Positions 5,135 through 60,963 of a DNA stretch of 64,000 nt are shown piece after piece. The stretch comes from a virus: positions 39,524 through 103,523 of IMG/VR virus record IMGVR_UViG_3300025133_000044. One strand, given 5' to 3'. The notes beneath the pieces were generated by a model, which was not told the DNA's origin, made no database searches, and worked only from the letters and a program-made list of their open reading frames with translations. The position numbers and the translations under genes were made by a program. Within the stretch, counting starts at the first letter, position 1. Every line of letters starts with the position of its first letter.

Positions 5135-8100
5135 TTAATCGTCAAATGAAGCGCCGCTTCTGGTAATTATAAAGTCAAGGGCTATAAATTCAATAGCTCT
5201 TGCAGGCTTTAAGAAGATTTTAGCGTATAGAATATTTCTATCAACTAAATCTGGCGTTGTGGTTGTCTCGTCCAGCACAACCCTAAAGTCCGTTAAGCCT
5301 AATCCAGCTTTGACACCCTCCAAGAAAGGCTCGACCTGACCAGTAAACTTATCCCACGTGGCTACAACATTCTGGTCGAAAAGAATTCTAGAAGCGATTT
5401 GTGAAATTTCTTTCTTAATGAAGATAAGAAGTCTTCTTACGTTGATTCTGTCCAAGGCGGAAGGAGTTACCTGCAGGGTTTTCTGGCCAAAGATAACGAT
5501 TCCTTCAGCTGGGAAACTAGCGATTGGGTTAACATTTGCATCGTAAAGTTTATCGCGGAGAGCAGAGGTGAGACGTTCTCTTACCCCAATTACCGGTAAA
5601 CCTGCCGAACCTTCGCTTAAGCCGCCGCGAGTAAAGCCAGCTGGTGCGAACCAAACTGCTGATTTTCTCTGTGAGCTTGAAAAAGTACCAAGAGCGACAA
5701 CAGAAGGCGGAACATATAATATAGCGTCATTGACGTTATCTTTAATACGCACCCACGGGTAGAAAGCACAGCCATAACTCGAATTGAGGGACAGATCTTT
5801 TGCTTTATTAACGATATCAGAGACAGTACCCATTCGAGCGGCCTCGTCATCATCATTTTCGTGTCTTGGCTTATAACCGCCTTCGACATCGATAATAGCC
5901 AAAGCATCAGCACGATCCTCACAAGCGTTAACTAACATAGTATTTAATTTAGAGTTTGTGAGGCCCGGTATAGTAGCAACATCGAATTCTGCAAATTCGC
6001 TATCCGATAAGATATCAATTGCTTTTTTGACCGAGTAATATGCATAATTAGTATTTTCGGAGCCGTTGTCTATATATTCATTACGGAAAGGATCGGCTTC
6101 TGTTATATCCAATCCATCAAAGCCACCGAACATGGGAGAAGTAAACCTATTCCAATCTCTTTCCAACACTTCTGCAGAAGAGGTGACCGATGGAGTGCCT
6201 GTCTCGCCAGCAGTTATAGAACGGCCGCTAGCTCTGGAGCCACTTACCCATATCGCCTTTGAAGTATCAAACCCGCCGCTGCCGCTAACTGATTCTACAT
6301 CATCTAGGGTAAATACCCAAGAATATTTTGTTTCGTTAGCCAAACTACCTGCTAGCACGCCTGCAGGTTGACCTCTTAGAAGATCAAGGTTGGTTTTATC
6401 AAATATTCTAGTGTCTGCTAAAGTTGACTGGTAGCCGAAGTAAGCACGAGTTGCCATAACCATATTGCCCTCAGAAGCAGAAACTCTAAGTCTTGTAGAG
6501 GGCCACTGTAGAGAGGCGGTGAGACCACTAGCATTTGACGGAGTCGTAAGATGGTTGCTTTCTACTGCGGCGCCGGGGCCAACGCTGATCAGGCCGGCAG
6601 CTGCATGGCCAGTAACCAAAGAATCAGCAGGAAGTGATCCAGTACTGGCAATCCATGGATCAATATCGACACCAGCATTATCAGTTATATTAGAAACTAG
6701 TGAACCGCTTAAAAGCTGAAGTTCTCTTGGGATAACAGGTCCATAGACACCATAAGGCAATAGACCTTCGGCTCCTGCGTCGTCGACAATACGTTTGGTT
6801 TCCACTCGAACATACTTAGATCTGTTGGGATATTCTCCATGCTCAGTAATAGTTTTGGTAGTTTGATTATAAGCGTAACTTCTATCACCCACAACTTTCT
6901 TTATGTAATCAGCAGAATTTGGATTTAAGTTAAGTCCGCTAAAACGCTCAAGAATAACAGGATTGTTATCTGAATCTCCAGCTGCTCTAACAGCTAAAGT
7001 AAAAGTACCAAACTTATTAAAGTTATCAGTTGGCGCTTTGATATCCTGAAGGGAGATCTTAATATCTCTATTTATGTGCTCTCCGCTATCGTGAGCTACA
7101 AATCTAAACAACTCTTCTGTGTCGACGGTGGGATTAAAGCTAGCTGTAGTAAGACCTCTGGTATCTTGAGAAATATACCAACCAGTTCTAGCTGCGACGG
7201 CTTTTTGTAAACGGTCTGCCCAATCGACATCCCAGCCATTGCCCTGGAGACCTACAACCGCACCCCAGAACTGGCCTGTCGAAGTGACTGCTGCTCCGGT
7301 GACAGCCATATCATTTAAAACATTAGTTTCAAAAGTTTCACCAAGCCAATAAACTTGTTCAGAGTCAGCTGGAGTTATCTGAGTATTTGTTTTGGTTGGG
7401 TCCGTATTAAAAAGTTTTCTAATGTACAAATCACTGTCTTTATCAAAATTGAATGTCGCAGCTTTTACAGTTGAGCCAGATGCATCTTTTACTTTTGCTG
7501 TAAACTGTTGATTTGTTGATCTAATTAGTACGCCACAACCTTCTGTTGCTCTTCCATTGGGAGCTGTGCCAGTTATTTCAACGGTTGAACCCCCATCCTG
7601 TACATACCATATAGCAGCTAAAGTTCCCGTAACAGCAGGGCATGTGCCGCCGCCGGCCCATGCCGTCGCCCCGCCGCCGCTGTTGGCGAGGATCACATTG
7701 TCGGTCACCGCGGATCCTTCTGTGGCCGTTATACTATTCCCGACCGTACCATTCACACTTGAAACTAAGCGTACGCCTGCGGTCGTCACCGGATCAGCCA
7801 CGGCCTGGACCTTTAAAGTGCCCGCTGTATATGCAGCGTTGACCGCGTCTATGATGTTTGTCGCGAATTGAGCTGCGTTGCTATTAGCGTTCCCAAAAGC
7901 TATAACAGTCGCTGTCGAGGTCGACGTGGTATTATCTATATCAAACTCTACAGACTGACTGTCAGCATCATATATCTTAAGTTTTCTTGTGTTTGCGGCG
8001 CCGGCGGTGCAGGACGTGGCTACAACTATACTATGAGCCCCATTTCCAGAATTAGTAGCTGTATATTGATCTCCGTCTGGCGTCACAAACAAACCAAATG

Positions 8101-8518
8101 CCCCACCACAGGTAGCGCGATCGGTAGTTAATAACTCATCAGTTCTCCAGCCTGGCAATGCTTTGTCGAAGGACTCGTAACTTGTTTCAGCAGAAGTTGG
8201 GTGGTCACCCAAAAGTCGGTAGACAGTACAAGGAGAGTTATTTCGCAACCAAGCTTGAACTGCATATGCAGCATAAGTTGGAGCAGTTAACGCTCCATTA
8301 CGCCATACGTCCCCGCTCGGAGTTCCCGCCGAGGGTCGACCAAAGATTTGAACAAACTCTTTAAATGTTTCTACTTTAATCGGCCTGTTTGCCGGACCTT
8401 TTGCAAAACGACCAACGATTACTGGTCCCATGCGCTCCGGAAGTGCCGGTAATGCGGACTCGTCAATCTCATCCATAAAAATACCGGGTGAAATAAATTT
8501 AAATTTATCGACTGCCAT
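5135..8518 (-). CDS. 18: Tail sheath protein (gp18) with inserted beta-module
   Basis: A 1127-residue contractile sheath protein. The N-terminal core (ISPGIFMDEIDESALPAL, then GPVIVGRFAKGPANRPIKV) and the C-terminal core (about residues 980-1127, with FIKKEISQIASRILFDQN and AKIFLKPARAIEFIALDF) are typical of T4-type sheaths. T4 gp18 is about 659 residues, so roughly 470 extra residues form surface domains. Residues about 160-290 hold an Ala/Thr/Gly-rich beta-module like those in the fibre proteins at 50931-59060 and 59083-60963; its DNA (about 7640-7720) is conspicuously GC-rich. The 5' leader holds the octamer ACTATTTA and a perfect hairpin. Sheath subunits contract on adsorption and drive the tube through the envelope. 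Confidence 0.92.
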   Translation of the reverse strand: MAVDKFKFISPGIFMDEIDESALPALPERMGPVIVGRFAKGPANRPIKVETFKEFVQIFGRPSAGTPSGDVWRNGALTAPTYAAYAVQAWLRNNSPCTVYRLLGDHPTSAETSYESFDKALPGWRTDELLTTDRATCGGAFGLFVTPDGDQYTATNSGNGAHSIVVATSCTAGAANTRKLKIYDADSQSVEFDIDNTTSTSTATVIAFGNANSNAAQFATNIIDAVNAAYTAGTLKVQAVADPVTTAGVRLVSSVNGTVGNSITATEGSAVTDNVILANSGGGATAWAGGGTCPAVTGTLAAIWYVQDGGSTVEITGTAPNGRATEGCGVLIRSTNQQFTAKVKDASGSTVKAATFNFDKDSDLYIRKLFNTDPTKTNTQITPADSEQVYWLGETFETNVLNDMAVTGAAVTSTGQFWGAVVGLQGNGWDVDWADRLQKAVAARTGWYISQDTRGLTTASFNPTVDTEELFRFVAHDSGEHINRDIKISLQDIKAPTDNFNKFGTFTLAVRAAGDSDNNPVILERFSGLNLNPNSADYIKKVVGDRSYAYNQTTKTITEHGEYPNRSKYVRVETKRIVDDAGAEGLLPYGVYGPVIPRELQLLSGSLVSNITDNAGVDIDPWIASTGSLPADSLVTGHAAAGLISVGPGAAVESNHLTTPSNASGLTASLQWPSTRLRVSASEGNMVMATRAYFGYQSTLADTRIFDKTNLDLLRGQPAGVLAGSLANETKYSWVFTLDDVESVSGSGGFDTSKAIWVSGSRASGRSITAGETGTPSVTSSAEVLERDWNRFTSPMFGGFDGLDITEADPFRNEYIDNGSENTNYAYYSVKKAIDILSDSEFAEFDVATIPGLTNSKLNTMLVNACEDRADALAIIDVEGGYKPRHENDDDEAARMGTVSDIVNKAKDLSLNSSYGCAFYPWVRIKDNVNDAILYVPPSVVALGTFSSSQRKSAVWFAPAGFTRGGLSEGSAGLPVIGVRERLTSALRDKLYDANVNPIASFPAEGIVIFGQKTLQVTPSALDRINVRRLLIFIKKEISQIASRILFDQNVVATWDKFTGQVEPFLEGVKAGLGLTDFRVVLDETTTTPDLVDRNILYAKIFLKPARAIEFIALDFIITRSGASFDD

Positions 8519-12398: not shown

Positions 12399-12409
12399 AT
12401 CAATCATTA

Positions 12410-12417
12410 TAAATAGT
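12410..12417 (-). promoter_or_regulatory. Octamer upstream of decoration gene
   Basis: ACTATTTA 47 nt before ATG 12362; it reads TATAAATAGT on the other strand. Confidence 0.5.
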
Positions 12418-12441
12418 AATGTGTTTGCTTAAATGTCTAAA

Positions 12442-12642
12442 TTATTCTGATTCTTCTTCGACGGCTTCTTCAACATCTGTCCCTTCTTCCGGCGGTGGTG
12501 CAGGGGGAACGAAATGGTTAACTGCTTGGGATACCAAAGAGGCCTCATTAAGATTAAAGGCTCCTCGCTGTTGAGCCAATTGAGCAGCCTGAATTAACAT
12601 ATGTACTGCTTGCTGCTGTGTTTCTACAGTTTCTTGTGACAT
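12442..12642 (-). CDS. Small protein downstream of major capsid gene
   Basis: A 66-residue protein: an amphipathic Gln/Ala-rich helix (about residues 5-35, with LIQAAQLAQQRGAFNL), a short EASLVSQAVNHF helix, then a Pro-rich and Glu-rich acidic tail. It resembles small proteins of unknown function that I recall in marine phages near structural genes. A ribosome site AGGAG lies just before ATG at 12642. It is transcribed beyond the terminator that follows the capsid gene, so it may depend on read-through. No function is assigned. Confidence 0.65.
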   Translation of the reverse strand: MSQETVETQQQAVHMLIQAAQLAQQRGAFNLNEASLVSQAVNHFVPPAPPPEEGTDVEEAVEEESE

Positions 12643-12715
12643 GGTAAACTCCTTTTTCTATGTCAGATATTATAATTATAACAATCTTAAATTTTAATGT
12701 TAAGTTTTATTTAAT

Positions 12716-12750
12716 AAAAAAACCCGCCAAGAGAAAACTCAAGGCGGGTT
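12716..12750 (-). terminator. Rho-independent terminator after major capsid gene
   Basis: Coding strand: AACCCGCC stem with GGCGGGTT, an A/T-rich loop, and a run of seven T. It lies 25 nt after the capsid gene stop and would cut the level of the 66-residue gene downstream. Confidence 0.92.
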
Positions 12751-12774
12751 GGTTTAGTTACCTAGTAATCAGGC

Positions 12775-14619: not shown

Positions 14620-14644
14620 TTTTTAAACCTCCTATAGTATATTA

Positions 14645-15973
14645 TTAAGTCTTATTAATTCCAGCTAGGAATTTCCAGCGATCATACACTGGTACTTTTT
14701 TCTGTCTTGCAGATTTGTTTTCTCTGCTCGACAGAATCATTGAAGAAGACTTTTCAACTGCCTCGCTCAGTGACTTAGGCTGCTTAGCATTTCTGCGAGA
14801 GGTGCTGCCCACTGTGCTTTGAAGTGTTTCAAAAATAACTTTTGCTTCTTCAATATTGTCGGCACTAGAAATAGCTTCGGCAAGCTTACGCTTTTGCCGC
14901 TCATTCAGGGAGTCGCTGTCCAATGCCTTGTTCGTGTAAAGTAGTTTTGCGTTTGTAAGAGAAGCTGCATCGAGCTTCTCTTTTAATATTACAACTGCGT
15001 CTCGTAATCTTTTAACATAATCATCTGATTTTGATAGAGACTTTGCTAGTTGTTTGTTTTTCTTTCCTAATGATTCGTTAACTTTTTCAAGTTCGCTAAC
15101 AGCCTTTCTTATGGCGTCTTTTTCTTCTCGAACTTTCGAATCTTGTTCTAAAGCCAATAATTCTTCATCAGCTAGCTCTAGTAAGGGCCCGGGCGTCCCA
15201 GCCCAGCCGCTCTTTTGGGGGTGAATATCAACTGTCAACTGTTCATAGATCTGACTATAAAGTTCTTCTTCTAGTTCCTCTTCAGAGAGGGTATCTTCCA
15301 AGAATAATTCTTCGTCTAGACCTTCCTCATAAGCATCTTCATCGTAAACAGCTTCCTCATAAAGATCTTCGTCTAAATAATCTTCGTCTAAAGATCCTTC
15401 ACCCAAATAGTCTTCGTCCAGGTAGTCTTCATCTAGACTCTGTTCTCCAAGTGCGGGGGCGCCGACGCTTGAATAATCTGCTTCGCCCCAAAGATCTTCT
15501 TCGTATAAGTCTTCTGCCATCAAATCTTCCAAAAGGCCTTCAGTAAGTTCAACTTCTTCTTTGTTTTCTGTGTCTTCATTCAACTTTTCTATTTGTTCTA
15601 GTAAGGCATCAAGAGGAATTTCAATTTCTGCGTCAATTGCGCCAAGTTTCTGAGTTGCTGCCTTGGGGATATGTTCCATAACAGAACTTTCTTCTACTTT
15701 TTCTCCCATGGCCATATCGTCAGTTGGGGCGCCTATATCCATACCAAGTCCGCCAGCAAGAGGGTCTGCTCCTGCTGCTCCTGGTGCAGGAGGGGCCCCT
15801 GCCATCATTGGATCCGCTGCAAGCGGATCAGGCATGTCTTGTTCTAGTAAAGATTCTACAGCTCCCTTGATCTGCCTTGAATATTTTTCTAAAACCATTG
15901 ATTCAGCATTTTTGACTGCAGCTTCACGAAGAGCATCCGCATCAATTATTGCTTGTTCTAACATGTTGGACAT
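14645..15973 (-). CDS. 22: Prohead core scaffold protein (gp22-like)
   Basis: A 442-residue, highly acidic, helical protein directly upstream of the capsid gene, the T4 position of gp22 (269 residues). Residues about 165-255 are an unusually long acidic tract with tandem DEDYL and LYEE units. The C-terminal half (about 275-440) is a coiled coil ending in the basic VYDRWKFLAGI motif that I associate with gp22-like scaffolds, probably the capsid-binding end. Several L-x-E/A sites (for example LAEA and LSEA) suit degradation by the gp21 protease during maturation. The N-terminus has an Ala/Pro/Gly/Met-rich linker at about 50-90. The leader carries the octamer and an inverted repeat. Confidence 0.85.
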   Translation of the reverse strand: MSNMLEQAIIDADALREAAVKNAESMVLEKYSRQIKGAVESLLEQDMPDPLAADPMMAGAPPAPGAAGADPLAGGLGMDIGAPTDDMAMGEKVEESSVMEHIPKAATQKLGAIDAEIEIPLDALLEQIEKLNEDTENKEEVELTEGLLEDLMAEDLYEEDLWGEADYSSVGAPALGEQSLDEDYLDEDYLGEGSLDEDYLDEDLYEEAVYDEDAYEEGLDEELFLEDTLSEEELEEELYSQIYEQLTVDIHPQKSGWAGTPGPLLELADEELLALEQDSKVREEKDAIRKAVSELEKVNESLGKKNKQLAKSLSKSDDYVKRLRDAVVILKEKLDAASLTNAKLLYTNKALDSDSLNERQKRKLAEAISSADNIEEAKVIFETLQSTVGSTSRRNAKQPKSLSEAVEKSSSMILSSRENKSARQKKVPVYDRWKFLAGINKT

Positions 15974-15990
15974 TTATTGACTCCTGATAG

Positions 15991-16012
15991 ACTATTTGTC
16001 AAAATAAATAGT
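15991..16012 (-). promoter_or_regulatory. Octamer and inverted repeat upstream of scaffold gene
   Basis: The octamer ACTATTTA (16005-16012) is the left arm of an inverted repeat ACTATTT / AAATAGT with an 8-nt loop; 31 nt lie before ATG 15973. Confidence 0.5.
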
Positions 16013-16037
16013 ATGTTGGATATTAAAGTGACTCATT

Positions 16038-18890
16038 TTAAGTTGAACAAACTCCAGTGACATGATACCTGATATCGTTTAATTGAGCATAGATACATGT
16101 AATGTCAACGTAGTCACCGTTAACGGCGCCGGCAATAATAGTTAAAGTTTGATCATCGGTGTGTACAATGTTAGCGGGTGCGCCTTCATCTGCAACTGAA
16201 ACAATCCTAGAAATAAAAGTATCATTAGTGCCCGCGCCGGAAGCTGTCTCAATTGTGACTGCCTCATCGGTGACACCGACGTCGCGGCTGGTGCCTGTCG
16301 CGGTTTCATCGTTAACTATTACTCTTATATGCCAACCTTGAAGCGCTTTAAGTGTCGCCGCGTTGGTGGTGGTTGGCAGCGTAATTGCAAATGCTGCACC
16401 GGTGGTGCTAACAAGAATAGTTGCTCCATAATAGCCCTGCCAAGTACTAGTCAAATCGAGAGCAGAAGCAGCTCGGTGCACTGGTTTCTTGTAACCAAAG
16501 CCCCCCTCGCTGTTCCAGTCGTAACTGTATGCCGTAACGATACCGGCGCCTGGACCTCCACCATATGACAGGAAAGCTAAATCCATATCATCAACATTGG
16601 CGCCGAGACCGAGGAGGTCGGGCACTCCATGAGTAGCGGTACCTTGGACGGCCAGGCCGGATGAAAGGGTGAGAGCGCCGCTGTCGGTGATCCTCATGTG
16701 CTCAGTCGAAGTCGTATCATCGTCGTCATCAATGACGGATGTACCGAACACAAGGTCGCCACCTTTATCGCCGTCGCCATGATCTTCTGCAGCGTACGCA
16801 GCAATAAATACGGAAGCTTCTGTAATCGTGCTAGGCACATTGCCGTCTGTTGAATCAAAACCGATGCCGCCGAGCAAATTAGTGTCTGCAGTTGAACTAT
16901 CCGCACGAACGATCATTAAGCCATCGTCGCCGTCGACGCCAGTATGATCAATCTGCAGTTTGTTTGAAGGCGATGTCGTTCCGATGCCGACGTTATCGCC
17001 CAAAATAGCCATCTTGGTGTTTCCGCCAGTTTTAAATAAAAATCTGTCGGAGCCGTGATCGTAGTCGATTTGTCCCTCATCGTTGTCAGTGGGCGACCCA
17101 AAAATAATAGAACCACCATAAGCACCGGGAGATTGAAAATGTATCTTTGGCTTTTCATTGGACTCTAGAGTTAAAATAGCGCCGTCCGTGGTGGCGATAG
17201 CTCCAGCAGAGCCGTTTTGAAGGTGTAGTGATGTTTCTGGGCTAGCCGTTCCGATACCGACGTTGCCACCGATGCCGACGTTGCCAACGGGAGTTAATAG
17301 AATATCAGCGCCTGATTCGATTGTGAGATCGGTGCCATCGCCAGAGATTTTTTCACCACTGTCGCCGAACTCAAGCGATTTTCCGCTAGCTATGAGGAAG
17401 GTCTCGCGGCCTCCATCAATTCTACAAATTTCGTTGCCATCAGAATCCATAAATTTGATATCTTTTTCTGCGGCGCCGTTGTAAATTTCGCAATCACCAC
17501 TGTTGTTGGTGAATTTTATGAATTGTGTTCCAGCGTCTTTCAGGATAACATCGTTTGCAGCCGCATCAAGAATAATGTCACCAGATGCATCAAGTAAAAT
17601 ATCACCGGTGCCATCAAGCGTAATCCCTGCCACAGCAGCGAGGGCTGCGGCGCCGTTGACGTCAACTGTAAGAGTGGCAAACTTTGATCCATCATATGAC
17701 CATTTTTGTTGTGTGCTGGTTGATAGCACTTCAAGCTGAGTATCTGGATCTCCCACGCCTAGGCCGACGTTGCCCTCGACAATTAACCCGTTTGTGGGAG
17801 CGGCAGTTGATCCAGCTTGACCGGCGCCGATGGTGACGCCTCCTGCAACATCAAGCTTTGATGCCACGGTGGCTGTTCCGATGCCGACGTTGCCGGACTC
17901 ATCAATACGCAATCGCTCCAAATCCGAGGTGCGAAGCGTCAAGTCCCCGGCTGTATCAGATGAGCCTCTGAAACAGCGTATACCTGTGATGGGTGAGGCG
18001 CCCTCATTGTAAAACTGTATGAGGGCAGCAATATCGCCATCGGAGGTTCTGTTGTTATCAAACCTTAGTACTGTTACTTCATCAACTTCTGTGGACTCTA
18101 TCTTTACGGTTGGGTTTGATCCGGCGCTTTTTACGTGAAGAATGGTGTCGGGGGCCGCAGTGCCAATGCCAACACTGTCACCCAAAATTGTCATTTTGGT
18201 GTTCCCGCCTGTTTTAAACAGAAATCTATCTGAACCATGGTCGTAATCAATCTGCCCTTCGTCGTTATCAGTAGGAGATCCAAATATAATAGAGCCGCCA
18301 TAACCACCAGGAGACTGAAAATGTATTTTAGGCTTTTCATTAGACTCCAAGGTTAAAAGTGCGCCATCGGTTGTTGCGATAGTGCCAGCAGAGCCGTTTT
18401 GGATATGAAGTGATGTTTCTGGGCTGGCCGTGCCAACGCCGACCCTATTGTTGCTAGCATCTAAATATAAAGTGTTTGAATCAAAGTTTAGATTATTTGG
18501 GATTGTGACAGCTGATGCGCTAATAATAAGATTGTCGCCACTTGCGTCACCAATAGTTGTAGTGTCAGCTGAAATCTTGAAATCTTGTACGTGAGCATCA
18601 AGAGTTCCAGTAACATATAAGTTACCAGTAATACGAGCGTCACCCGTAACATCAAGTTCGTAAGCTGGATTTAATGTTTTGATACCAACATTATCCATAA
18701 AAGAAACAGCGTTGCCAGAACCAGACTGGAGAAATGATCCTGAAACAATGATGTGGGAACCGCTCAAGGTTAGATATGAACCGCTCAAAGTTGCCTTTGC
18801 CGCATCAGTTTCACGTGAACCACTCAAGGCTAGATAAGAACCTGATAGCGGTCCGATGTTATTTACGTATAATCTGCTAGGGTTAGCCAT
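16038..18890 (-). CDS. Long repetitive fibre protein encoded within the head module
   Basis: A 950-residue fibre-type protein. After an N-terminal run of LSGSYL-like repeats, it has at least five VGIGT-type turns (NVGIGTASPETSLHI and variants), typical of trimeric beta-structured fibres that often end in a peptidase S74 domain. No S74 domain is evident here: the C-terminus (about 800-950) is instead a Thr/Ala/Val-rich beta domain like the decoration protein at 11877. Residues about 150-244 and 544-638 are a near-identical duplication. It sits between two small beta proteins and the scaffold gene, so a head fibre or whisker-like appendage is as likely as a tail fibre. Ribosome site AAAAGGA precedes ATG at 18890. 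Confidence 0.8.
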   Translation of the reverse strand: MANPSRLYVNNIGPLSGSYLALSGSRETDAAKATLSGSYLTLSGSHIIVSGSFLQSGSGNAVSFMDNVGIKTLNPAYELDVTGDARITGNLYVTGTLDAHVQDFKISADTTTIGDASGDNLIISASAVTIPNNLNFDSNTLYLDASNNRVGVGTASPETSLHIQNGSAGTIATTDGALLTLESNEKPKIHFQSPGGYGGSIIFGSPTDNDEGQIDYDHGSDRFLFKTGGNTKMTILGDSVGIGTAAPDTILHVKSAGSNPTVKIESTEVDEVTVLRFDNNRTSDGDIAALIQFYNEGASPITGIRCFRGSSDTAGDLTLRTSDLERLRIDESGNVGIGTATVASKLDVAGGVTIGAGQAGSTAAPTNGLIVEGNVGLGVGDPDTQLEVLSTSTQQKWSYDGSKFATLTVDVNGAAALAAVAGITLDGTGDILLDASGDIILDAAANDVILKDAGTQFIKFTNNSGDCEIYNGAAEKDIKFMDSDGNEICRIDGGRETFLIASGKSLEFGDSGEKISGDGTDLTIESGADILLTPVGNVGIGGNVGIGTASPETSLHLQNGSAGAIATTDGAILTLESNEKPKIHFQSPGAYGGSIIFGSPTDNDEGQIDYDHGSDRFLFKTGGNTKMAILGDNVGIGTTSPSNKLQIDHTGVDGDDGLMIVRADSSTADTNLLGGIGFDSTDGNVPSTITEASVFIAAYAAEDHGDGDKGGDLVFGTSVIDDDDDTTSTEHMRITDSGALTLSSGLAVQGTATHGVPDLLGLGANVDDMDLAFLSYGGGPGAGIVTAYSYDWNSEGGFGYKKPVHRAASALDLTSTWQGYYGATILVSTTGAAFAITLPTTTNAATLKALQGWHIRVIVNDETATGTSRDVGVTDEAVTIETASGAGTNDTFISRIVSVADEGAPANIVHTDDQTLTIIAGAVNGDYVDITCIYAQLNDIRYHVTGVCST
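16976..17260 (-). repeat. Internal fibre duplication, copy B
   Basis: This segment encodes about 95 residues (SPETSLHLQNGSAG through ILGDNVGIGT) that match copy A at 18158-18442 with about six amino-acid differences in 84 compared. The spacing is exactly 1182 bp (394 codons). At DNA level the copies differ at many third positions. Confidence 0.85.
18158..18442 (-). repeat. Internal fibre duplication, copy A
   Basis: N-terminal copy of the same 95-residue unit (SPETSLHIQNGSAG through ILGDSVGIGT). Both copies keep HFQSPG-YGGSIIFG and DYDHGSDRFLFKTGG. Silent divergence with conserved protein indicates an old duplication kept under selection, or selection on both copies against recombination. 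Confidence 0.85.
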
Positions 18891-50930: not shown

Positions 50931-53900
50931 CTAAATTATTGATCCTGTTATCCATGCATATTGTTTATCTGTTCTTGGTATCATATGTGAGATAAAAGCG
51001 TTATCATACATTTGCGTTGTCCCCAGGCAGAGTCCGGATGCAGAGTCGGGACCAGATATTACTTGGGGGTATGAGCCTCCTGGTCCTACATTTGTGCTAT
51101 TCGAGCTTTTTCGGTCAACAGAGGTTATTATAAGGGCGCCGTTGGCTGTTAATATATCACCGATATCTCCCATCTTCCACCAAGATACTAAGTTACTATA
51201 CTGAGAATGTTCTTCAAGATCTCCAGGGCCGGGTTGATGGTCCGAGACAATCCCGACACATGAATGCCCATTGTATAATTCTAAAACTTCTGCTGCTGTT
51301 AGCTCGGTTTTCCACAAACTTACCTCGTCTATAGCACCGTCAGCAAACTTATCAGTAGAGTCGTCCTCCTTGCCAATGTTAACAGGTGCAGAGGTATTGT
51401 GCATAGTAGCGTAATCATTTGCGCCTGTTGACTCGGCATGAATAGATGAAACTTGCTGGCCATTTATATATAATTTAATAGTTTTAGCGCCGACAGCTGC
51501 GTTGGCTGTAGCGGCTACGTGGGCCCACGCTCCCTCGATCGTAGCGATGGCGGCGGTGGTGGAGAATTCTTGTTCGTATTTAGAACTAGTTTGATCATAA
51601 ACTGTCAATGACAATTTATCAGCGTCAGTGACTTCAAATCTATATTCGTAAGCTGCAGCGCTGTGGTCAACTTTTTCAAAAATAGGAAAGTTAGTTGCAT
51701 CAGTCATTTTAACCCAAGCGCTAATAGAAAATGGAAGATCTGCAGCCACAATGTCGTCAGTGCCGCCAGTAAAGTTCGGCAACGTAACGGTTCCCTTCGG
51801 CACGAAATTCAAACCCACGACATCATGGTCCTGCTTTGATGTCATTACTACATTACCAGCATCGCCATTTGTACCCTGTGTAAGAAGAAGCGTTTGATCT
51901 AGCAAGCTTCCAACAAAAGGAGGACTTCCAGATGTAATATCAATATGGTTATTGGAACTAGCACCGTTAATAGCTGCTTCAATCATCTCTGCAAGGTCGA
52001 AGGGATCGATGATTACTGCTTCGCTAGCAGCTATAATATAGTTGATAGGGGTAACAGTGTCATCATAAGTAGATATGCCCAAGGAGGTATCAAACGTAAA
52101 TTTTACTTGTTGGCCTGCGACATCCTGTAAAATGAAGTATTCATCATCTAATCCTACCGGTTGATTAACTTCATCGACGCCGTTGAAAAAGTTATTTGTA
52201 GAAAAACTCAACGTGGCTGTGGTGCCGTAAAAGACCTCGATGAGCCAAGGGGCTGTGTAGGTTGTCTCGACGGCTGTATTCCCTTGCGGGCCCTCGTGGT
52301 CTTGTGTGAGAATAAGCGCCCAGCTTCCGGGTGGGGCGGTGGGATCGCCAGAGAGACCAGCCACAGCAGTAGTGGACAGAAGCTGGGGGGTACTCTGCAT
52401 ATAATTAATAGCTTCTTCTATTGCGACTGCTAACTCCTGTGGAGTAGTGATATTGAGAGCTGGTATAACTACAAATCCCTGACCGGTGATGGCGTTGTGG
52501 GTGTAGGTGATGAGGGCCGCGGTGATATCAAAAGAAAATTTAAATGTGCTAGGTGAAACTGGTGCACCGTCAGTTAAAGTGAAGGTTTCGAATTGTAATC
52601 CTAGCGGCTGTATGATTGCGTCCTCTCCACCTGTGAAGTTTATAGAACCAAGTAAAGTAAGGGTGTCAGCATCCTCAACAGCATCGAGTGCGCTGAGAGC
52701 TGCAATAGGATTTCCATTTCCAATAACACCTAGCTGACCTTGCGTAAGAACAATTGTTTGTTCTAAACCTGGGTCGCCGGATCCGGGATGTGGATTTTGA
52801 ACCAATATGTCAATATGATGCTGAGTTTGCGCAAATTCTATCGCGCCAACAATTGCAGAAGCTAACAAATATGGATTATTCTGATCTCTAATACCCACAC
52901 TTATATTTACAGGAGTAACTGCAGTATCCTCAGTTATAACATCATCAGTATTGTCAAACGTGAATTTTACTTGGCGGTCGGCGTGGTCCTGTAGAGTGAA
53001 CCATTCAGTATCCAGGCGGGCTAGCCAGCCAGTGGCGCCCGTGAAATATGCCTGTGGATAAGCCGGAATTTTGAAAGTGTCTGTCGTTGTAGCTGCCGCG
53101 CCGGGGATATTGGCCGGCCAATCGCCGGCGACCTCAAGAATCGCCTGGGCAGAGACCCCTGTTATGTCAGCAGGCCAGTTGCCAGCGATAGCAAGAGTTG
53201 ACGTAGCAGGTGTGCCAGCGGCAGCTGCGACGGCAAAAGAAAGTGAATCAGAATCGTTAACTTGAAGGTAACTATCCGTTCCGTTGAAGGAAGCAGCTTT
53301 ATTTTCAGATAAGGGTACTGAAATAGGTACTTCAGAAGGTCTTTCGAGATTGTTCCTGTGATATTTATGTTTTGACGCGTCGCCTTCAACTTGGTAATTA
53401 GATGAGTTTATTGCGCCGGACACTTCTGATCCGTATACTCTTGCAAAAACAGTACTTGGGCCATGGGTACTTACACCAAACTGGCCCATGTGTGCTTGAA
53501 GTTGGGTACTGAGAACTTTTCTACCCCAATTATTTCTCCACGGCATTGCATTGTAAACAGAATAAGTTTCGTGGGCTGGATCTCGAAAGCCACGTGACAT
53601 AACTTCAAAACCACCTGGAGAACTGAATTTGTTTTTAAATCTCGTTCTATTTTTTACAGATCCAGATATATAATCTTTATTAAGACAGTTGTAATCAATA
53701 CGTTTCAATTCAGTTCTAACTGTACCGGGAGGTATAGACAAAACTTCTTCAATACTACCAGTACCAATTCCTAATATCTCTGCTGTGATACTAGTAATCT
53801 CGTCAACGTGTTTAACGAACCAGGGGTCATTTGCTTCTGGGCTTACCGTGCTAATATATTCATATCTATCAAGATAATTACCTGCTTTCGTTGGTGAAGA

Positions 53901-56900
53901 GGCTGTCATTTGAATATTGCGTATGTTTAGTGGACGTTTTGCATATTCTTCACGAGTATATATAGCTCTTGGTCTGTGATGATTATCATGCATCGCATCT
54001 ATTAATCTAACACTATTTTGTTGTACACCGGAGGGAATTAGTACAATCACTCGATCAATTGCGCAATCCCCAAGATGAGTTATTCCGGCAGTATAAAGAA
54101 ATCTTAAATAAAATCTTGTACCTAAAACTTCTTTACCCAAAGAAGTTGCAAGATCACTAGTATTCGCCCACCTCCAATCATCCACACCAGAAGTCTGCTG
54201 CTGACCTATAATACTGGTACTAGTAAATGGACTGGCACCTAGCCAATCCCATACTAGCGGTATATCGGTAACTCCTGTTTGAAAAGTAGAATCTTGTGAA
54301 TGTTGAACTTTTAAGTAGCCCATATGAATACCATACATGTGGTACTTAAAACGAAAAGTAATATCGCCAGAATCAAGTTGGAGAAGATCAATTAGTGGAG
54401 TAACTAATCCAAAAGTCTGTCCTACAGAAGCCCAAGTTACGTTACAGAAAGCATAGCCAGTACCAGCTTGATCAAGTACATCTGGGCCTGTCCCAACAGA
54501 TGGAGTGGAAGTATTAGTGAGAGACCAACCATACTCAGAACCTACTCCAGTACCTGTTTGCCAATTGTCTTCCATACTAGGATCATCAGGTATGCCAGAC
54601 GGACTAAGAATGGTGAAATCGTTGGTAAGAGCAACGTCGACCTGTTCAAATTGCTCATATAAAGCGTAACTAGTACTTGATAAATTACCAAAGAACTCCA
54701 ACTCCCAGCCCTCAGGCCTCGTTAACTCATGGTCTAATTTGTTATTATTAGCAGAATTAACAATAGGGTCATATCGATTTATATCAGCATGCCGATATTG
54801 CATACCACCAACATATTTTTCAGTAAATGGACCCTGCATGGGGACTTCTGGTTTAACGCCATATTCATCATGATGAACATTTGTAAAATCAACTGGTATG
54901 ATGTCTTTATGGCCTGACATGTATCCAGTATCTATAGAAGAAGAATACATGTTAAAAGGCAGTAGTAGCGTGCTCTTCGCATCAGAATATTTTATATCGT
55001 TAAGACCTGTGCCTTCTGCGTTTGAATTAACAGTTTCCTCTGCTGTCATTGTAAAAGCTTTTACTGTATACTGCTTTTTATTTGATTCATCAGGAATTTC
55101 CTTATCGATAATATCAATTTCTTTAATTTCATGATCTCGATCGATCCAAATGTAGTCATTGTCACTTGCCCACTTAATAACGCCTTTGTAATAATCATGT
55201 ATATTATTATTTTTTGGATTTGATCCTCCCTTAAGTTCAAGTGAGATCTTCTTATCTAGATGAACAGGAACAGAAAGACGACGTGGTTTATATTGAGAAC
55301 CCTCGTATTGAGCTTTACCAATTGTTTTTAGTGTCGGGCCTTTAGCATCTAATTCAGTAATAATTCTTTTTAATAAGATATCTTTATTATCGTTTACATT
55401 ATCGACACTAGAAGATATTTCTAAAACACTTCTTTCTGCTCTCTCTTTCCACCAAAGATGATTTCTGTTCTGTGCTAGCGGAGATTCAGGTAAGGGGGCA
55501 TGCCCAAATTTCCAATTATATAAAATCTCGTTAATCCCCACCAAAGAAGAAATTGGAAATTTAACTTCCGTATCTAGAGTTGGAAATTTAGTCATATATT
55601 TATTTCTTTCTAGTATATGACTTTCAACCATGTTTCTGAGAAGTTCTACAGAATTAGAAGAAGCAGGCATTAATTGTGCTATCATTAAAGTAACAGCTTC
55701 ATCAACCCATTTATAATATTCAATGAATTTATCCAAATCTGGTGTATTTTCTACTTTTTCAAAGAATAAATCAGATAATTTCTCCATGCGCTTATAATCT
55801 GATCGATAGCGGTTGACAGGATCTCCAATAAGATTGTTAAAATCGACAATTGTTGCAAAAAACCTTATCATTTCTTCAGAAATGATTTGATACATACTCT
55901 TTTCAATAGAAATAAGGTGCTGAACATAAGTTGTATCTCGTGTAAAGACTACTTCATCTTGTTGTGATAGAATTTTAATAAAATCATCACTATTAACCGT
56001 CTCCGGAAGCTTTTGTTTGGCAGCTTGTACAAATTCGACGTCTATAGCTTGATCTGCATAATTGGGATCCCTAAGAAAGAAGTCGGCGCGGCCAGAATAG
56101 TTGTGTTTTGCCACATCACTAACCCAACCATATCTTGATATACTCTTATCATAAGCTGAGCCTGAAGCGAAATCTTCAATTAAAAATTGTCCACTGGCAT
56201 TTGAACCAGTTACATTGTCCAAAGTCCAGTTTAAAGCTAAAGTCTCTATTTGTGGAATAAAATCATCAAATAATTCTACGTGGCTGGCAGCAAAATTACT
56301 ATTTTTATAAGGATGTAATGTACCATATATATTAGCATCTCTTGCATGAGCACGAATTGTTTCATTAGGCAAATAATCAAACCAAAATCTAACAGAGGAT
56401 ACTTTTACATCTGAATATCTTGATATACTTCCTGTAAAGTTTTCTCTTTTAGAGCCTGCGTAAAGTCTCTTTGGGAACCCAAAAAATTTTCCTGCGTCTG
56501 TTTCACTCATAGTCCCGGTTATAACAAATTCATTCTGTAAAATATTAGATAAATAATTAACCCCATAAAATTCATATGTATAAGCTATGTTTTCTTCTTC
56601 TAAGCTTTCGTCCACGAAACTTGCAATAGGGTATTTCGTTGGTCTAAGTCTAAATGCCAAATTCCATTTTTGGTTATCATATACTTCCATATAGGAATCT
56701 GATTTCAATGTAGCTATTATTGGTGAAACACCATCAGCCACTAAGGCGAAGCTAACGTTTCTCCTATCATTGTTTCCTTTAATCGCAACAATATTAAAAT
56801 TAGTTGTATTATCTGTGTGATACGTTAAATCTGTATTTGAGTCGTATACGGCATCCATCCCCACAATAGAAGAAGTCAAAGATGGGAACATCTGATAATT

Positions 56901-59060
56901 TGGATCACCAGCTAACGATCTTTTTGGGAACATGACTTCTGCTTCAACTGTCATGGCGGCGCCGGAAGCGTATGTGCCAAGAATACCAGGTATAAAAGAT
57001 AACGAATTGGAATCGGAAGAATCGTAATACTGATAAGCAGTTGCGGTAAAAGATCCAGAATACGTTGTCTTGTTTGAGGAGTCAAATCGATTTTCTAGAT
57101 CATCGAAATCAAGAAATTTCTTTTTTATAGAAGTATGAGAATAGGTGTCTTTTAACTCATATGTATCGTTAGTCGCATAAATATTTATTTTAATTAATTC
57201 TTCATCAACGCCGTAACATCTAAGGAGATTTCTTAAAGATTTTATAGTGCCTTTTGATTTTTGAATATATGCTAAATTATTATATATGTTTTGGTATATT
57301 GTATCTTTTACTTCATAAAGCTTATTCTCATAAAGTTTTTTCTCTCCTCTTTGAAGGTATTTTGATAATATTGAAGCATCAGCAAATAATTCTGGCGTGT
57401 CAAATCCGCGCGAACTCAACAAATAGCTAGCAAAAGGCAGAGGTTTTTCGTAATTGTTATCATAAGGATAGTTTATATCTCTCAACCTCGGAAGACTTTC
57501 CATCTGAAGATATAAGTTGTCAAAGTAACTCGCGATGATTTGTGTTAAAAACCTTAAATGTCCCGATTCAGATTCGTCTTCTTCTAAAATCCACCCTGGT
57601 ACTGACTTGTATATTGATGAACCATTTAAATGATCGTGTATTTTTCCAATAGCTATTTTTCTATTTAAGAAAGAAGAAACTTCTGGGTGGTCTGGATATA
57701 TGATTGGATCTTTAAATTCATATTCAGCAGCTTCTGAAAGGATAATAGCAGAATTTGTATTTCTTGACTCGGAAGGGTTATAATTTATGAATTTACCATT
57801 AGAAATTCTTCCAGAATAATCTAGTATTACAGAATCAGTAGAAGTTTCTCCTACTATGCCCTCATTAAACTTATAGTAAACGCCAAGATCTACTTTATTT
57901 GTTACATCATCGTATTTTTCATTATCAGTATTGGTGCCGCCGCCTATTTGAGTTCTATAATATCTTCCAATTTGTTGTGCGTCCCTTTCTGTTTTCCAAT
58001 ATCTAAATTCGTCAAAAGAAGCAGAAACAATGTTACCCCAACCCTCTCCAGAATTGAGGTAGGCGCCGCCGGGGCCGGCCATGGCGCCGAGAGCCGCTAC
58101 CATAGTACCCGAAGCAGCAGGATAGGGGGCATTAAGAGTAGCGACATCTTTGTGCGCGCCATTTAAATACAAATTAACTGTAGTTATTGGTAAGCCGGAT
58201 ACGGGTGCGGATCCTTTATTTTTAAATGTGACAGCATAGTGTTTCCACTTTCCGTCTGCAATACTTTCTCCTGTTTCTAAAGTAAAAATTTTACCCTGGA
58301 TCGCAGACCCAACAAACCCCTCTTGTGTATAAAGGACGGCCCACAGGGTGTTTTCTTGGCCGGGGATGTTACTTGTTTTAATAGAGAGATAATCAGTTGT
58401 GGCGCCTGATGCGTCTAAAGAAACATTATCAAATATAGTTTCGAGCGAACCATCCGGAGCAGTGCCATCTTTTTTCATCCAAAATTCTACAGTGACACCT
58501 TTATCCAAGTCAAGTTCTAAATTATTAGTTCTTTGACTGGCAGTATGGTATATATTTGCTTTTGATACTCCTATTCCAGAAGGGCCGGCGGAGAAGTCGC
58601 TTTTGTAATCACCAGATGGATCTGCATGGGGGCCACCATAAAAAGAGATATATTGAGGGGCGCTACTAGAATATTGTAAAGCAGATACAGTCGAAGTATA
58701 AGTGCTAGAACCGCTATTAAATGTAATGTACCCGTTAGTTCTGGGATATTCATGCTCAAAAATGAAAAGATCTAGATAAGTACTCTCATTTTCCCATTCA
58801 ATTTTTTCTGTTAATGAACCATCATATGGATATGTTTGATACACCCTTTTAATGGAGTTTTCATAATAAAGTTCGGCTAGCCCAAAACGAGCAAAGTTAG
58901 ATGCAGTTGTGAAGTCTACATCTGGAAAGAATCTGTCCCTTCGAGTTGAATAAACATCAATATACTTTGCAGATTCTAAATCTTTTGCTAAATCATTTTG
59001 GGATTTATTCTTAAGAAACTTTAGCGAATGGCCCTTATCAAATAAATCTTTTATACCCAT
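50931..59060 (-). CDS. Giant virion protein with two LamG domains and tandem beta-modules
   Basis: A 2709-residue protein, the largest gene here. Residues about 185-370 form a LamG/concanavalin A-like domain (VTVEFWMKK, KWKHYAVTF, VNLYLNG). A second LamG is split: its first strand (ASFNGTDSYLQVNDSD) is at about 1920-1943 and the rest (FSISAWVKM, AWAHVAATA, IKLYINGQQ) at about 2437-2600. Three copies of an Asp/Thr-rich beta-module (about 2018-2140, 2146-2300, 2305-2435) lie between. LamG domains commonly bind glycans, so this is a candidate adhesin or baseplate arm. The long middle region carries mixed Tyr/Asn-rich strands and no recognised enzyme motif. Confidence 0.85.
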   Translation of the reverse strand: MGIKDLFDKGHSLKFLKNKSQNDLAKDLESAKYIDVYSTRRDRFFPDVDFTTASNFARFGLAELYYENSIKRVYQTYPYDGSLTEKIEWENESTYLDLFIFEHEYPRTNGYITFNSGSSTYTSTVSALQYSSSAPQYISFYGGPHADPSGDYKSDFSAGPSGIGVSKANIYHTASQRTNNLELDLDKGVTVEFWMKKDGTAPDGSLETIFDNVSLDASGATTDYLSIKTSNIPGQENTLWAVLYTQEGFVGSAIQGKIFTLETGESIADGKWKHYAVTFKNKGSAPVSGLPITTVNLYLNGAHKDVATLNAPYPAASGTMVAALGAMAGPGGAYLNSGEGWGNIVSASFDEFRYWKTERDAQQIGRYYRTQIGGGTNTDNEKYDDVTNKVDLGVYYKFNEGIVGETSTDSVILDYSGRISNGKFINYNPSESRNTNSAIILSEAAEYEFKDPIIYPDHPEVSSFLNRKIAIGKIHDHLNGSSIYKSVPGWILEEDESESGHLRFLTQIIASYFDNLYLQMESLPRLRDINYPYDNNYEKPLPFASYLLSSRGFDTPELFADASILSKYLQRGEKKLYENKLYEVKDTIYQNIYNNLAYIQKSKGTIKSLRNLLRCYGVDEELIKINIYATNDTYELKDTYSHTSIKKKFLDFDDLENRFDSSNKTTYSGSFTATAYQYYDSSDSNSLSFIPGILGTYASGAAMTVEAEVMFPKRSLAGDPNYQMFPSLTSSIVGMDAVYDSNTDLTYHTDNTTNFNIVAIKGNNDRRNVSFALVADGVSPIIATLKSDSYMEVYDNQKWNLAFRLRPTKYPIASFVDESLEEENIAYTYEFYGVNYLSNILQNEFVITGTMSETDAGKFFGFPKRLYAGSKRENFTGSISRYSDVKVSSVRFWFDYLPNETIRAHARDANIYGTLHPYKNSNFAASHVELFDDFIPQIETLALNWTLDNVTGSNASGQFLIEDFASGSAYDKSISRYGWVSDVAKHNYSGRADFFLRDPNYADQAIDVEFVQAAKQKLPETVNSDDFIKILSQQDEVVFTRDTTYVQHLISIEKSMYQIISEEMIRFFATIVDFNNLIGDPVNRYRSDYKRMEKLSDLFFEKVENTPDLDKFIEYYKWVDEAVTLMIAQLMPASSNSVELLRNMVESHILERNKYMTKFPTLDTEVKFPISSLVGINEILYNWKFGHAPLPESPLAQNRNHLWWKERAERSVLEISSSVDNVNDNKDILLKRIITELDAKGPTLKTIGKAQYEGSQYKPRRLSVPVHLDKKISLELKGGSNPKNNNIHDYYKGVIKWASDNDYIWIDRDHEIKEIDIIDKEIPDESNKKQYTVKAFTMTAEETVNSNAEGTGLNDIKYSDAKSTLLLPFNMYSSSIDTGYMSGHKDIIPVDFTNVHHDEYGVKPEVPMQGPFTEKYVGGMQYRHADINRYDPIVNSANNNKLDHELTRPEGWELEFFGNLSSTSYALYEQFEQVDVALTNDFTILSPSGIPDDPSMEDNWQTGTGVGSEYGWSLTNTSTPSVGTGPDVLDQAGTGYAFCNVTWASVGQTFGLVTPLIDLLQLDSGDITFRFKYHMYGIHMGYLKVQHSQDSTFQTGVTDIPLVWDWLGASPFTSTSIIGQQQTSGVDDWRWANTSDLATSLGKEVLGTRFYLRFLYTAGITHLGDCAIDRVIVLIPSGVQQNSVRLIDAMHDNHHRPRAIYTREEYAKRPLNIRNIQMTASSPTKAGNYLDRYEYISTVSPEANDPWFVKHVDEITSITAEILGIGTGSIEEVLSIPPGTVRTELKRIDYNCLNKDYISGSVKNRTRFKNKFSSPGGFEVMSRGFRDPAHETYSVYNAMPWRNNWGRKVLSTQLQAHMGQFGVSTHGPSTVFARVYGSEVSGAINSSNYQVEGDASKHKYHRNNLERPSEVPISVPLSENKAASFNGTDSYLQVNDSDSLSFAVAAAAGTPATSTLAIAGNWPADITGVSAQAILEVAGDWPANIPGAAATTTDTFKIPAYPQAYFTGATGWLARLDTEWFTLQDHADRQVKFTFDNTDDVITEDTAVTPVNISVGIRDQNNPYLLASAIVGAIEFAQTQHHIDILVQNPHPGSGDPGLEQTIVLTQGQLGVIGNGNPIAALSALDAVEDADTLTLLGSINFTGGEDAIIQPLGLQFETFTLTDGAPVSPSTFKFSFDITAALITYTHNAITGQGFVVIPALNITTPQELAVAIEEAINYMQSTPQLLSTTAVAGLSGDPTAPPGSWALILTQDHEGPQGNTAVETTYTAPWLIEVFYGTTATLSFSTNNFFNGVDEVNQPVGLDDEYFILQDVAGQQVKFTFDTSLGISTYDDTVTPINYIIAASEAVIIDPFDLAEMIEAAINGASSNNHIDITSGSPPFVGSLLDQTLLLTQGTNGDAGNVVMTSKQDHDVVGLNFVPKGTVTLPNFTGGTDDIVAADLPFSISAWVKMTDATNFPIFEKVDHSAAAYEYRFEVTDADKLSLTVYDQTSSKYEQEFSTTAAIATIEGAWAHVAATANAAVGAKTIKLYINGQQVSSIHAESTGANDYATMHNTSAPVNIGKEDDSTDKFADGAIDEVSLWKTELTAAEVLELYNGHSCVGIVSDHQPGPGDLEEHSQYSNLVSWWKMGDIGDILTANGALIITSVDRKSSNSTNVGPGGSYPQVISGPDSASGLCLGTTQMYDNAFISHMIPRTDKQYAWITGSII
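51770..53008 (-). repeat. Three tandem beta-modules inside the split LamG domain
   Basis: Each unit has the same order of cues: a (F/Y)-x-L-x-D start, a V/T-K-F-(T/S)-F-D strand about 12 residues later, an I-x-x-A-I helix, an ending L-T-Q-x-x-x-G-x-x-G-N turn, and finally (N/F)FTGG-type residues. The three copies are diverged in DNA, so this is a domain-level repeat, not a recent duplication. Confidence 0.65.
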
Positions 59061-59082: not shown

Positions 59083-60963
59083 TCAATTGCTCTCTACTCT
59101 GAATTTAAACATTTCTTGCTGTTCTCGCCAACCATCCGAAGAATGATAAGCAAATTTTATAGCATACATATAGCCAGGTTCCAATAAAGTCATATCAAAA
59201 TCAAAATAACTTCCAGAATTATCATAAGACAAATAAGTATGGTAAGTGGTATTTGAACTTGCCGTTGAATGATTGAAAATAGTCTCACCGTCAGCCATTC
59301 TAATGATTTCGTAAGAGGCACTAGGAATTGTAGTTCCTTGAATATCAGTAGAAGCAACGGAATATATTGTTGGACTAAAGTTTCTTGGTCTGGTGAAGAC
59401 TCTAAATTTAGCTTGTTCTTCTTTGCTATATGAAGGTTTCAAGTTGGTTATTTTTGTCGTGAACTGATTATAATCATTAGATGTTAATACACAAGTATCA
59501 TTAAAGTTCTTAACAGCAACTGAACCAGTCTTATATTCTCCGCCTATACTACCTGACCACACATCATGCAATAAAGAGGAAGAAGAAGTTAAAAATACTT
59601 GAGCTTTGTAAATTCCTGTACTTTGTTTTGTCGCCGTGGCTGTTTTTAATACGGCGCCTGTAGGAGTATTACTTGTACTTTCATATAATTTAACTTTTAA
59701 TGTCTCACTATGTGGTATGTCTTTAAGTTTTCCACGAATATAATTGTACAAATATAAATTATTTAAATTATCAGAAGCAGGAGCGATAGAACTGCTTGAA
59801 TAAAAATTACCTCTATCATCTGCAACTCTAGAATCCCAACGAGCTTCTAGGGCCGGCCTTTTAAAGAAAAATTCGCTGGATCTTGCAAAAAATCGTTTTG
59901 TATAAAAGCTTTTTCGTTGGCCAGAAGTATTGGCCAGGACGCTACCACTTGCTGCTGCGGCATATGCTTCCTGATTAGAAGTCAAGAAAACACCGAAACC
60001 ATAATTTGGTTGCCCGTCTGTATCTATCCACTCTTCCACTGCTGACGTCACATCAAGCAATAAATCTTCATCACCACTTTTAAAAGTACAAGAATAGCCA
60101 GGCATAGTTGAGCCAGCAACGTAAGCAGATGTATGATAATCGCCGCCAACTGTTACCCATTTTCCAGTCCCTCCAGAGAAATTTTGTGCTGTAAGATGAG
60201 CAACACCACTGACATCTACCGTAGTGTTACCGCTATAGCCCGTATTGTCTTGCGTCAAGGGCAGCGTCATCTGCGAATCTGCGTCACCAGCAGCCACTGC
60301 GGTTCCAGCTGTTATCGCAAGAGCAGATACATTATTGATTGCAGTCTTAATTGAATCAATCGCTTGAGTAGTATTCGAATCACCTGTAAAACCAATAGTG
60401 CCTGCAGAATTGACAGAGCCGTCAAAATCAAAAGTAAAAGTTTGAGACACTCCATTAGCGTCAGTAAGAACAAAAGTTTGAGCATCCATCGCTGCTAAAT
60501 TTGCTCCACCTTGAAGCACTAAATTAGTAGTAGCGGAAGCAAAGTCATTGGTGCCATTTATCCAATTTGAGCCATCAATGCCATCTTTCGTTTCGTCGGT
60601 ATAGCCCTCCATATCCAAGCCATATCCTTCTTGCCAAGATGATGATACCGCTAATACATTTACAGTAAAGTTTTTTGGAAGTTGTTCAGAATGTCTTGCG
60701 TTAAACATCCTTAAGTAGAAATTAACGCTTCCAGATGCTGGAATCAGACCAGCTGTTCTATCAGAAGTTACACTATCAACTGGAAATTGTATCAAGACGC
60801 GAGATAATTCAGCCGAAGATGTTGTTTGTTGACCATAAATTGAGAACACTTCTAAAATATCAGAAGCTCCCATGTTTGAACCGGTCCCGCGCGTGCTTAA
60901 ATTTAATTTGTAGGCATTGGTTATAGTATTGTCTGCTGACGCTTTATATCTTTTAATTGCCAT
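59083..60963 (-). CDS. Virion structural protein with inserted beta-module
   Basis: A 626-residue protein. The stretch GYGLDMEGYTDETKDGIDGSNW is a motif I recall from marine phage tail proteins. Residues about 158-268 form the same beta-module as in the 2709-residue protein (TFVLTDANGVSQTFTFDFDG, I-T-A, LTQDNTGYSGNT, NFSGG). The flanks (SNWING and VTVGGDYHTS) look as though they would join into one fold without it. C-terminal parts are Tyr/Ser-rich beta strands (YMYAIKFAYHSSDGW). Position between gp6 and the giant LamG protein suggests a baseplate or fibre-linker role. Confidence 0.78.
   Translation of the reverse strand: MAIKRYKASADNTITNAYKLNLSTRGTGSNMGASDILEVFSIYGQQTTSSAELSRVLIQFPVDSVTSDRTAGLIPASGSVNFYLRMFNARHSEQLPKNFTVNVLAVSSSWQEGYGLDMEGYTDETKDGIDGSNWINGTNDFASATTNLVLQGGANLAAMDAQTFVLTDANGVSQTFTFDFDGSVNSAGTIGFTGDSNTTQAIDSIKTAINNVSALAITAGTAVAAGDADSQMTLPLTQDNTGYSGNTTVDVSGVAHLTAQNFSGGTGKWVTVGGDYHTSAYVAGSTMPGYSCTFKSGDEDLLLDVTSAVEEWIDTDGQPNYGFGVFLTSNQEAYAAAASGSVLANTSGQRKSFYTKRFFARSSEFFFKRPALEARWDSRVADDRGNFYSSSSIAPASDNLNNLYLYNYIRGKLKDIPHSETLKVKLYESTSNTPTGAVLKTATATKQSTGIYKAQVFLTSSSSLLHDVWSGSIGGEYKTGSVAVKNFNDTCVLTSNDYNQFTTKITNLKPSYSKEEQAKFRVFTRPRNFSPTIYSVASTDIQGTTIPSASYEIIRMADGETIFNHSTASSNTTYHTYLSYDNSGSYFDFDMTLLEPGYMYAIKFAYHSSDGWREQQEMFKFRVESN

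Follow-up and report, generated by a model that had tools for sequence, protein, structure and literature searches.

Ig-like domains added to phage virion proteins (Fraser et al. 2006) are reportedly small and reused in many unrelated phage structural proteins. The modules reported here differ from them in having a central helix, in matching sheath and FliD-like structures and in sitting in loops. The report on Vibrio phage XM1 describes the insertion domain (InD) of its tail sheath as similar to domain D3 of FliD (PMC10457771). Our modules resemble the InD of XM1, and the similar chains of Mu and A-1(L), in fold and in being an extra domain inside another, whereas they occur at several positions, namely in LamG, in a baseplate-region protein and in sheaths; their copy number is one or higher, and close relatives differ in having or lacking them. 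They share a predicted fold with FliD D2-D3 and the outer domains of flagellin (Z about 6-8), and the helix of many modules ends in the consensus AIN, but they have no Flagellin_IN match and lie in phage virion proteins rather than in flagella. Domains of phage tail and receptor-binding proteins are shuffled according to Smug et al. 2023 (PMC10684548), a paper whose main text, by word search, lacks the terms 'tail sheath', 'nested' and 'FliD'. Here, a single module family hops between loops and, at one locus (L134), into itself. Among the titles and abstract beginnings listed, mostly from outside subscription journals, none described modules of one family that change places among the loops of virion proteins.

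Here we analysed a stretch of 64,000 nucleotides (the window), positions 39,524 to 103,523 of the 103,523-base record IMGVR_UViG_3300025133_000044, from a virus of bacteria known from environmental DNA alone. Our reading, to which we give a probability of roughly 0.8, is that three alpha/beta modules of about 125 residues, members of a hopping family probably spread by recombination, entered the concanavalin-like LamG domain of a tail protein behind its first strand and divided it. The proteins concerned are as follows.

50931..59060, minus strand: P0001, a 2709-residue protein of the tail/baseplate region that bears the split LamG; an ORF whose frame is open throughout
59083..60963, minus strand: P0002, its 626-residue neighbour with one module of the family, retrieved with the three window copies at E 2.5e-5
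5135..8518, minus strand: P0004, a tail sheath protein of 1127 residues with one module of the family (PHROG tail sheath, E 3.7e-60)

P0001 adjoins P0002, and the next gene but one encodes a gp6-like baseplate wedge protein (PHROG E 1.9e-20). When 50,697 records of cultivated phages were searched by tblastn, the LamG region, module 3, the P0002 module and P0002 gave no match, and the DNA of the split-LamG region likewise found none. Since the gp6-like neighbour and the sheath matched 85 and 2588 phage records, respectively, the tblastn search itself works. At locus L036:3802-13560 (minus strand), an ORF of 3253 residues matches P0001 in its first part and, judged by eye, resembles the window's 1876-residue protein at its end; the two proteins are seemingly fused there, and some other loci also hold ORFs about as long.

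The Pfam family Laminin_G_3 (PF13385) matched P0001 as a whole in two stretches (E 2.9e-31; 109.1 bits against a curated cut-off of 27.6), the C-terminal LamG domain reaching 88 bits. On residues 2441-2592 the match covers profile positions 16-150 of 151, the first 15 being absent there; in the alignment they are supplied by residues 1920-1943, 493 residues upstream. The motif ASFNGTDSYL begins at residue 1923 and PFSISAWVKM at residue 2443.

53232..53303, minus strand: LamG opening strand, residues 1920-1943, where 12 of 12 LamG rows align
51261..51752, minus strand: LamG remainder, residues 2437-2600, PF13385 profile positions 16-150
51753..53231, minus strand: insert in the LamG, residues 1944-2436 (493 residues), a gap in the LamG rows; its borders are uncertain by a few residues
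51021..53330, minus strand: whole LamG unit, residues about 1911-2680, present or absent as a whole among P0001 orthologues

All 12 aligned LamG rows leave residues 1944-2436 empty, save for three stray residues in one row, and they resume after the insert at residue 2437 (11 rows) or 2441 (one row). A preliminary description of this DNA had proposed that a LamG domain is split by about 490 residues and that extra domains were inserted between its first strand and its body. Both proposals stand: 493 residues separate the opening strand at 1920-1943 from 2437-2600, and the LamG rows leave that stretch free apart from the three stray residues.

The joining of the two parts rests on sequence alignment, and the C-terminal part might instead be a truncated LamG-like domain, with the upstream ASFNGTDSYL segment as an unused remnant. 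The LamG pattern is, however, kept both in the upstream segment (FNGTDSYLQVNDSDSLSF in P0001 versus FNGTNDYLAVADNITLQF in L041) and at the start of the body (FSISAWVKMTDATNFPIFEKV versus FSISAWVQMTDATNFPIIEKV, respectively), and we regard a remnant as improbable. In our reading the LamG would still close as one sandwich, with the modules projecting from the loop after the first strand. It is also hardly credible that the insert is removed before the protein works, as an intein or intron would be, or that it is an assembly chimera. Between positions 50900 and 54000 there was no Rfam match at E <= 1 that would indicate a self-splicing intron, and a Pfam scan of P0001 at E <= 1 returned Laminin_G_3 only, with no intein or Hint domain. 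The frame is open throughout, and contig IMGVR_UViG_3300008050_000073 matches the entire P0001 gene over 8130 nt with 5 mismatches; since a second contig carries the whole gene, an assembly error is unlikely. Base composition was set aside as evidence: G+C is 0.475 in the insert and 0.364 in codons 1-1905, and 30 of 626 stretches of the same size in the 64-kb window are as high. G+C is also raised at about 12300-18600 of the window, up to 0.52 over 1479 bases, unrelated to the split LamG.

The pattern PFSISAWV[KN]M retrieved five other viral contigs in which the opening strand and the body are adjacent; a sixth match is a near-identical contig of the window's own virus. Thirteen distinct P0001 relatives with a readable C terminus were classified, some of the other relatives being cut off or too divergent. 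Nine lack the LamG at this place (L040, L043, L044, L061, L062, L079, L096, L063 and G002/L087, the last two being the more divergent ones), three carry an unbroken LamG there (L041/L066; L052/L053/L055; L089), and one, that of the window's virus, has the split form. The uninterrupted homologues on which the preliminary description depended thus exist, in the five contigs and in the three same-place orthologues. The split form itself was seen in the window's virus and the near-identical contig L038 only. In G001/L040, which lacks the LamG, 56% identity to P0001 extends up to residue 1907 and the match picks up again at residue 2681. This series of orthologues without LamG, with an unbroken one and with a split one makes two layers separable: a LamG set into the tail protein, and modules set into that LamG. 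The LamG was probably gained, not lost, by the P0001-type protein. The opposite order would make the split form the earlier one and derive unbroken LamGs and proteins lacking modules from it by deletion of the insert. This order would agree with the tree of P0002-type proteins described below, on which the change counts do not separate gain from loss. It nevertheless appears very unlikely, as the LamGs of other contigs are unbroken, the split is seen only here and the site is free in the aligned LamG rows. Looking for other LamGs in which the body is immediately preceded by a module end, we obtained four stretches and no new split: one was the own virus, one an unbroken LamG with a chance FTGG, and two had no in-frame match.

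The insert consists of a head followed by three module cores.

53031..53231, minus strand: head of the insert, residues 1944-2010 (67 residues), preceding the cores; start-strand-like segments at 1951-1968 and 1970-1988 and a strand at 1993-1998
52605..53012, minus strand: module core 1, residues 2017-2152; 42% identity to core 3, matched by the iterated profile, first half modelled at pLDDT 75-89
52158..52592, minus strand: module core 2, residues 2157-2301; matched by profile A5 at E 2.4e-7, poorly modelled
51741..52148, minus strand: module core 3, residues 2305-2440; matched by profile A5 at E 3.0e-16, its model matching residues 114-214 of a Mu tail chain at Z 6.5

As the preliminary description had it, the three units are repeats of one kind: identity to unit 1 is 33% for unit 2 and 43% for unit 3. 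Units 1 and 3 are mutually closest (42%), and unit 2 is about equally near to the P0002 module and its neighbours. Profile A5 was made from 47 modules, with the P0002 module as its first member and none of the three LamG units included. On the virus's own record it matched units 3 and 2 at the E values given above; unit 1 was not listed and was joined to the family because of its 42% identity to unit 3. An iterated profile matched all three units (i-E 3.8e-23, 4.3e-17 and 2.8e-22), its training loci including near-identical copies of them in L038, and its next iteration had zero matches at E <= 1 against reversed ORFs. A module search with just the three window copies retrieved the own virus alone, and a single DNA pattern for the modules gave no matches. 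Two details of the preliminary description have to be amended. It called the units beta-modules, yet in the AlphaFold2 models they hold a central helix and are not all-beta; and it took them to stand in plain tandem, yet start strands and cores seem not to alternate. The 67-residue head, with its additional segments that look like start strands, comes before the cores.

To describe the fold of the module, the P0002 copy was modelled with AlphaFold2 together with 46 other rows, giving a mean pLDDT of 92.5 and a pTM of 0.86. These were 46 of 56 selected module rows; one of the ten omitted was identical to the target over its length and the rest were mostly divergent. The model contains a 13-residue helix at 59-71. 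It matched residues 99-222 of a Mu tail chain (Z 9.8, rmsd 3.2, 115 of 136 residues aligned), a chain that we take, judging by its size, to be the sheath. Residues 92-184 of the sheath-tube chain of cyanophage A-1(L) were matched at Z 9.5 (rmsd 2.0, 91 residues aligned, 21% identity). Further matches were a tail chain of Sf14 (Z 9.0), a chain of phage Bas63 (8.6), T4 gp11 (7.9), FliD (7.9) and a flagellin (7.0), where values below 8 may, by the tool's own note, reflect merely a common arrangement. Foldseek alone was weak in the PDB (best E 5.4e-3, FliD); among predicted viral proteins it found seven at E <= 0.001, the best at 1.7e-7. By these models, the module is predicted to have the fold of the sheath insertion domain and of FliD D2-D3 over most of the domain. 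In the LamG, in the P0002 type and in the sheath, it is set inside another domain and not at a chain end.

Family searches gave no consistent assignment. Pfam at E <= 1 returned 39 families over the 47 modules, none common to more than 4 of them, and the best of the 25 families listed was SpuA_C (1.1e-4, one module). A tail-sheath PHROG matched 3 of the 47 modules (best 4.2e-5), and Flagellin_IN (PF07196) had no match at E <= 10 in any of 8 records, one of which was that of the virus itself. An Ig-like all-beta sandwich was rejected, for the confident model contains a helix and none of the 25 listed Pfam families is Ig by name. The LamG insert was folded alone because trials with the whole LamG put the module rows onto the LamG or nearly all of them onto module 3. 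For this fold, 26 of 41 core rows were used; with all 41, the trial rows lay on module 3. The resulting model (mean pLDDT 56.2, pTM 0.39) reaches confidence in core 3 and, within core 1, in its first half, but neither in core 2 nor over most of the head, and the strand at 1993-1998 is at a pLDDT of about 58.

When the own record was searched with the three LamG units, a fourth copy was found in P0002 (E 2.5e-5).

60154..60570, minus strand: module inside P0002, at site A; A5 E 4.1e-35, itself the first member of A5

We therefore compared P0002-type proteins. The sample comprised the best 80 of 171 P0002 relatives, ranked with a query that contains a module, and 31 loci fetched via one module subfamily; 99 ORFs longer than 440 residues were reduced to 74 distinct proteins, that of the window's virus among them. 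An insert is present in 43 and absent in 31 of the 74, figures that are not a prevalence, as the sampling favours carriers. The first insert lies at one of four positions: site A (35 proteins), site B (six) and two further places (one each). At site A, 28 inserts fit the module profile and 7 of 35 do not; the latter (L044, L049, L058, L064, L068, L083 and L100) are possibly very divergent modules or another domain. A second insert elsewhere in the protein is present in L133, L134 and L141. The insert of L093 and the second inserts of L133 and L134 were placed by eye from their flanks.

A quick tree of module-free host proteins requires at least 19 changes between presence and absence of an insert, and starred branches force 10 of these. 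The sister of the window's P0002-type protein, L055, has no insert. Proteins without an insert cluster together on this tree (8 of 500 shuffles were as low), and those with one at site A do not clearly do so (143 of 500). All six proteins with a site-B insert form one clade, so that these inserts perhaps go back to one event. We also compared module identity with host identity in 26 of the 35 proteins whose one module begins at residues 150-200, duplicates removed. Modules were more alike than their hosts in 95 of 325 pairs and not so in 230, with a correlation of 0.26; in the 20 most extreme pairs the hosts are 46-55% and the modules 66-75% identical, for example 75% for the module and 46% for the host. 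At the DNA level, five pairs of filled and empty sites were compared. The change was sharp in the closest pair alone (84% identity), and no clear target duplication was found in any of the five. A pattern scan of genome contigs for the SKTAGQANTR subfamily gave 143 pattern stretches and no relative.

The family also extends to the tail sheath.

7649..8062, minus strand: module inside the tail sheath P0004; A5 E 4.9e-27, not an A5 member; site empty in L129, L140 and L149

This is the fifth copy in the window and resembles the SKTAGQANTR subtype. A conserved G[AS][FY]GLF segment has the module on one flank in the window's sheath and on the opposite flank in L150 and L151. In L129, L140 and L149 neither of the sites flanking this segment is filled, and a module is found at least some 300 residues further on. 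Modules also occur in the proteins encoded at L131:2076-4448 and L142:2016-4457 (plus strand). The L131 protein, the one of the two that was scanned, gave a weak match to a tail-tube family (Phage_tube_2, 2.2e-5) that stays under the Pfam cut-off. Compared at the level of sequence, the same module family occupies several positions in P0002-type proteins and sites in the tail sheaths of relatives, and the matching sites are free elsewhere. By the profile matches, then, the family is set into several virion proteins, which goes beyond what the preliminary description had covered.

We next consider how the three modules of the LamG are arranged. At L134:1695-3971 (plus strand), the outer site-A module is split by a complete inner module, and another module lies further on. 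The profile matches the inner module whole and the outer one from position 31, the start of the outer one being upstream of the inner copy. L133 carries the same module subtype as L134, unbroken. In the LamG insert, the head segments 1951-1968 and 1970-1988 resemble each other with a score that none of 5000 shuffles attained. Where a module stands singly elsewhere, its core mostly follows a start strand without a gap. In P0001, the three best spots for a start strand in the head rank 2, 3 and 8 by start-strand score, and the best spots before cores 2 and 3 rank just 268 and 462; the score is weakly specific, with rank 1 falling inside the LamG and the true strand not being the best in P0002. 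Furthermore, the core 3 model fits the Mu chain from residue 114 (Z 6.5), and the complete P0002 module from residue 99. A fit starting at 114 is expected if the first strand of core 3 lies elsewhere, but the alignment rows for this model consisted of cores only. The order of head start strands first and three cores afterwards suggests successive insertions, every new module being set immediately behind the first strand of its predecessor. For the three modules we consider nesting of this kind, with modules interrupted behind their first strands, somewhat likelier than a simple row.

Plain tandem repeats in the LamG loop, with the head duplicates being a linker or leftover and not the first strands of modules 2 and 3, are a serious contender that we put a little short of even odds. 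They would fit the AlphaFold2 model, which gives the head and core 2 no confidence and shows 1993-1998 as the sole head strand, and also the finding that the likeness of this third strand to the first two is indistinguishable from chance in shuffles. The low ranks before cores 2 and 3 compared with those in the head, the start-strand-then-core order of most single modules and the fit of core 3 from 114, not 99, speak against them.

Taken with the main reading, these observations suggest the following course of events. An older tail protein would have gained the LamG, and the modules would have come later. The module may be an independently folding unit whose two ends lie near each other, so that an exposed loop could take it up without breaking the fold of the host. 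It would move between phage genomes, probably by recombination, and may be kept as an independent decoration of the tail's outer surface, with a putative role in altering contact with cells or particles. More tentatively, and with slightly less than even confidence, a mobile domain of the sheath/FliD type with adjacent ends may have colonised exposed loops of the virion proteins of contractile-tailed phages, repeatedly inserting into itself directly behind the first strand and building nested towers. Such a domain would occupy loops of the sheath, perhaps the tail tube, baseplate-region proteins and the LamG, and the split LamG would be a five-layer doll of tail protein, LamG and three modules.

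The split LamG with its hopping modules is a form of intragenic phage mosaicism. It shows this mosaicism at the level of a single loop, where one of two close relatives may have an entire folded domain that the other lacks. Natural pairs of this kind could be used to test the events at the DNA level, how well tail machines tolerate additional domains and how host contact is affected, and L134 is a small natural case for the structural study of nesting. The finding also connects a set of insertions in uncultivated phages, for which Pfam gave no consistent family here, with the extra domain seen in tail sheaths and in flagellar caps.
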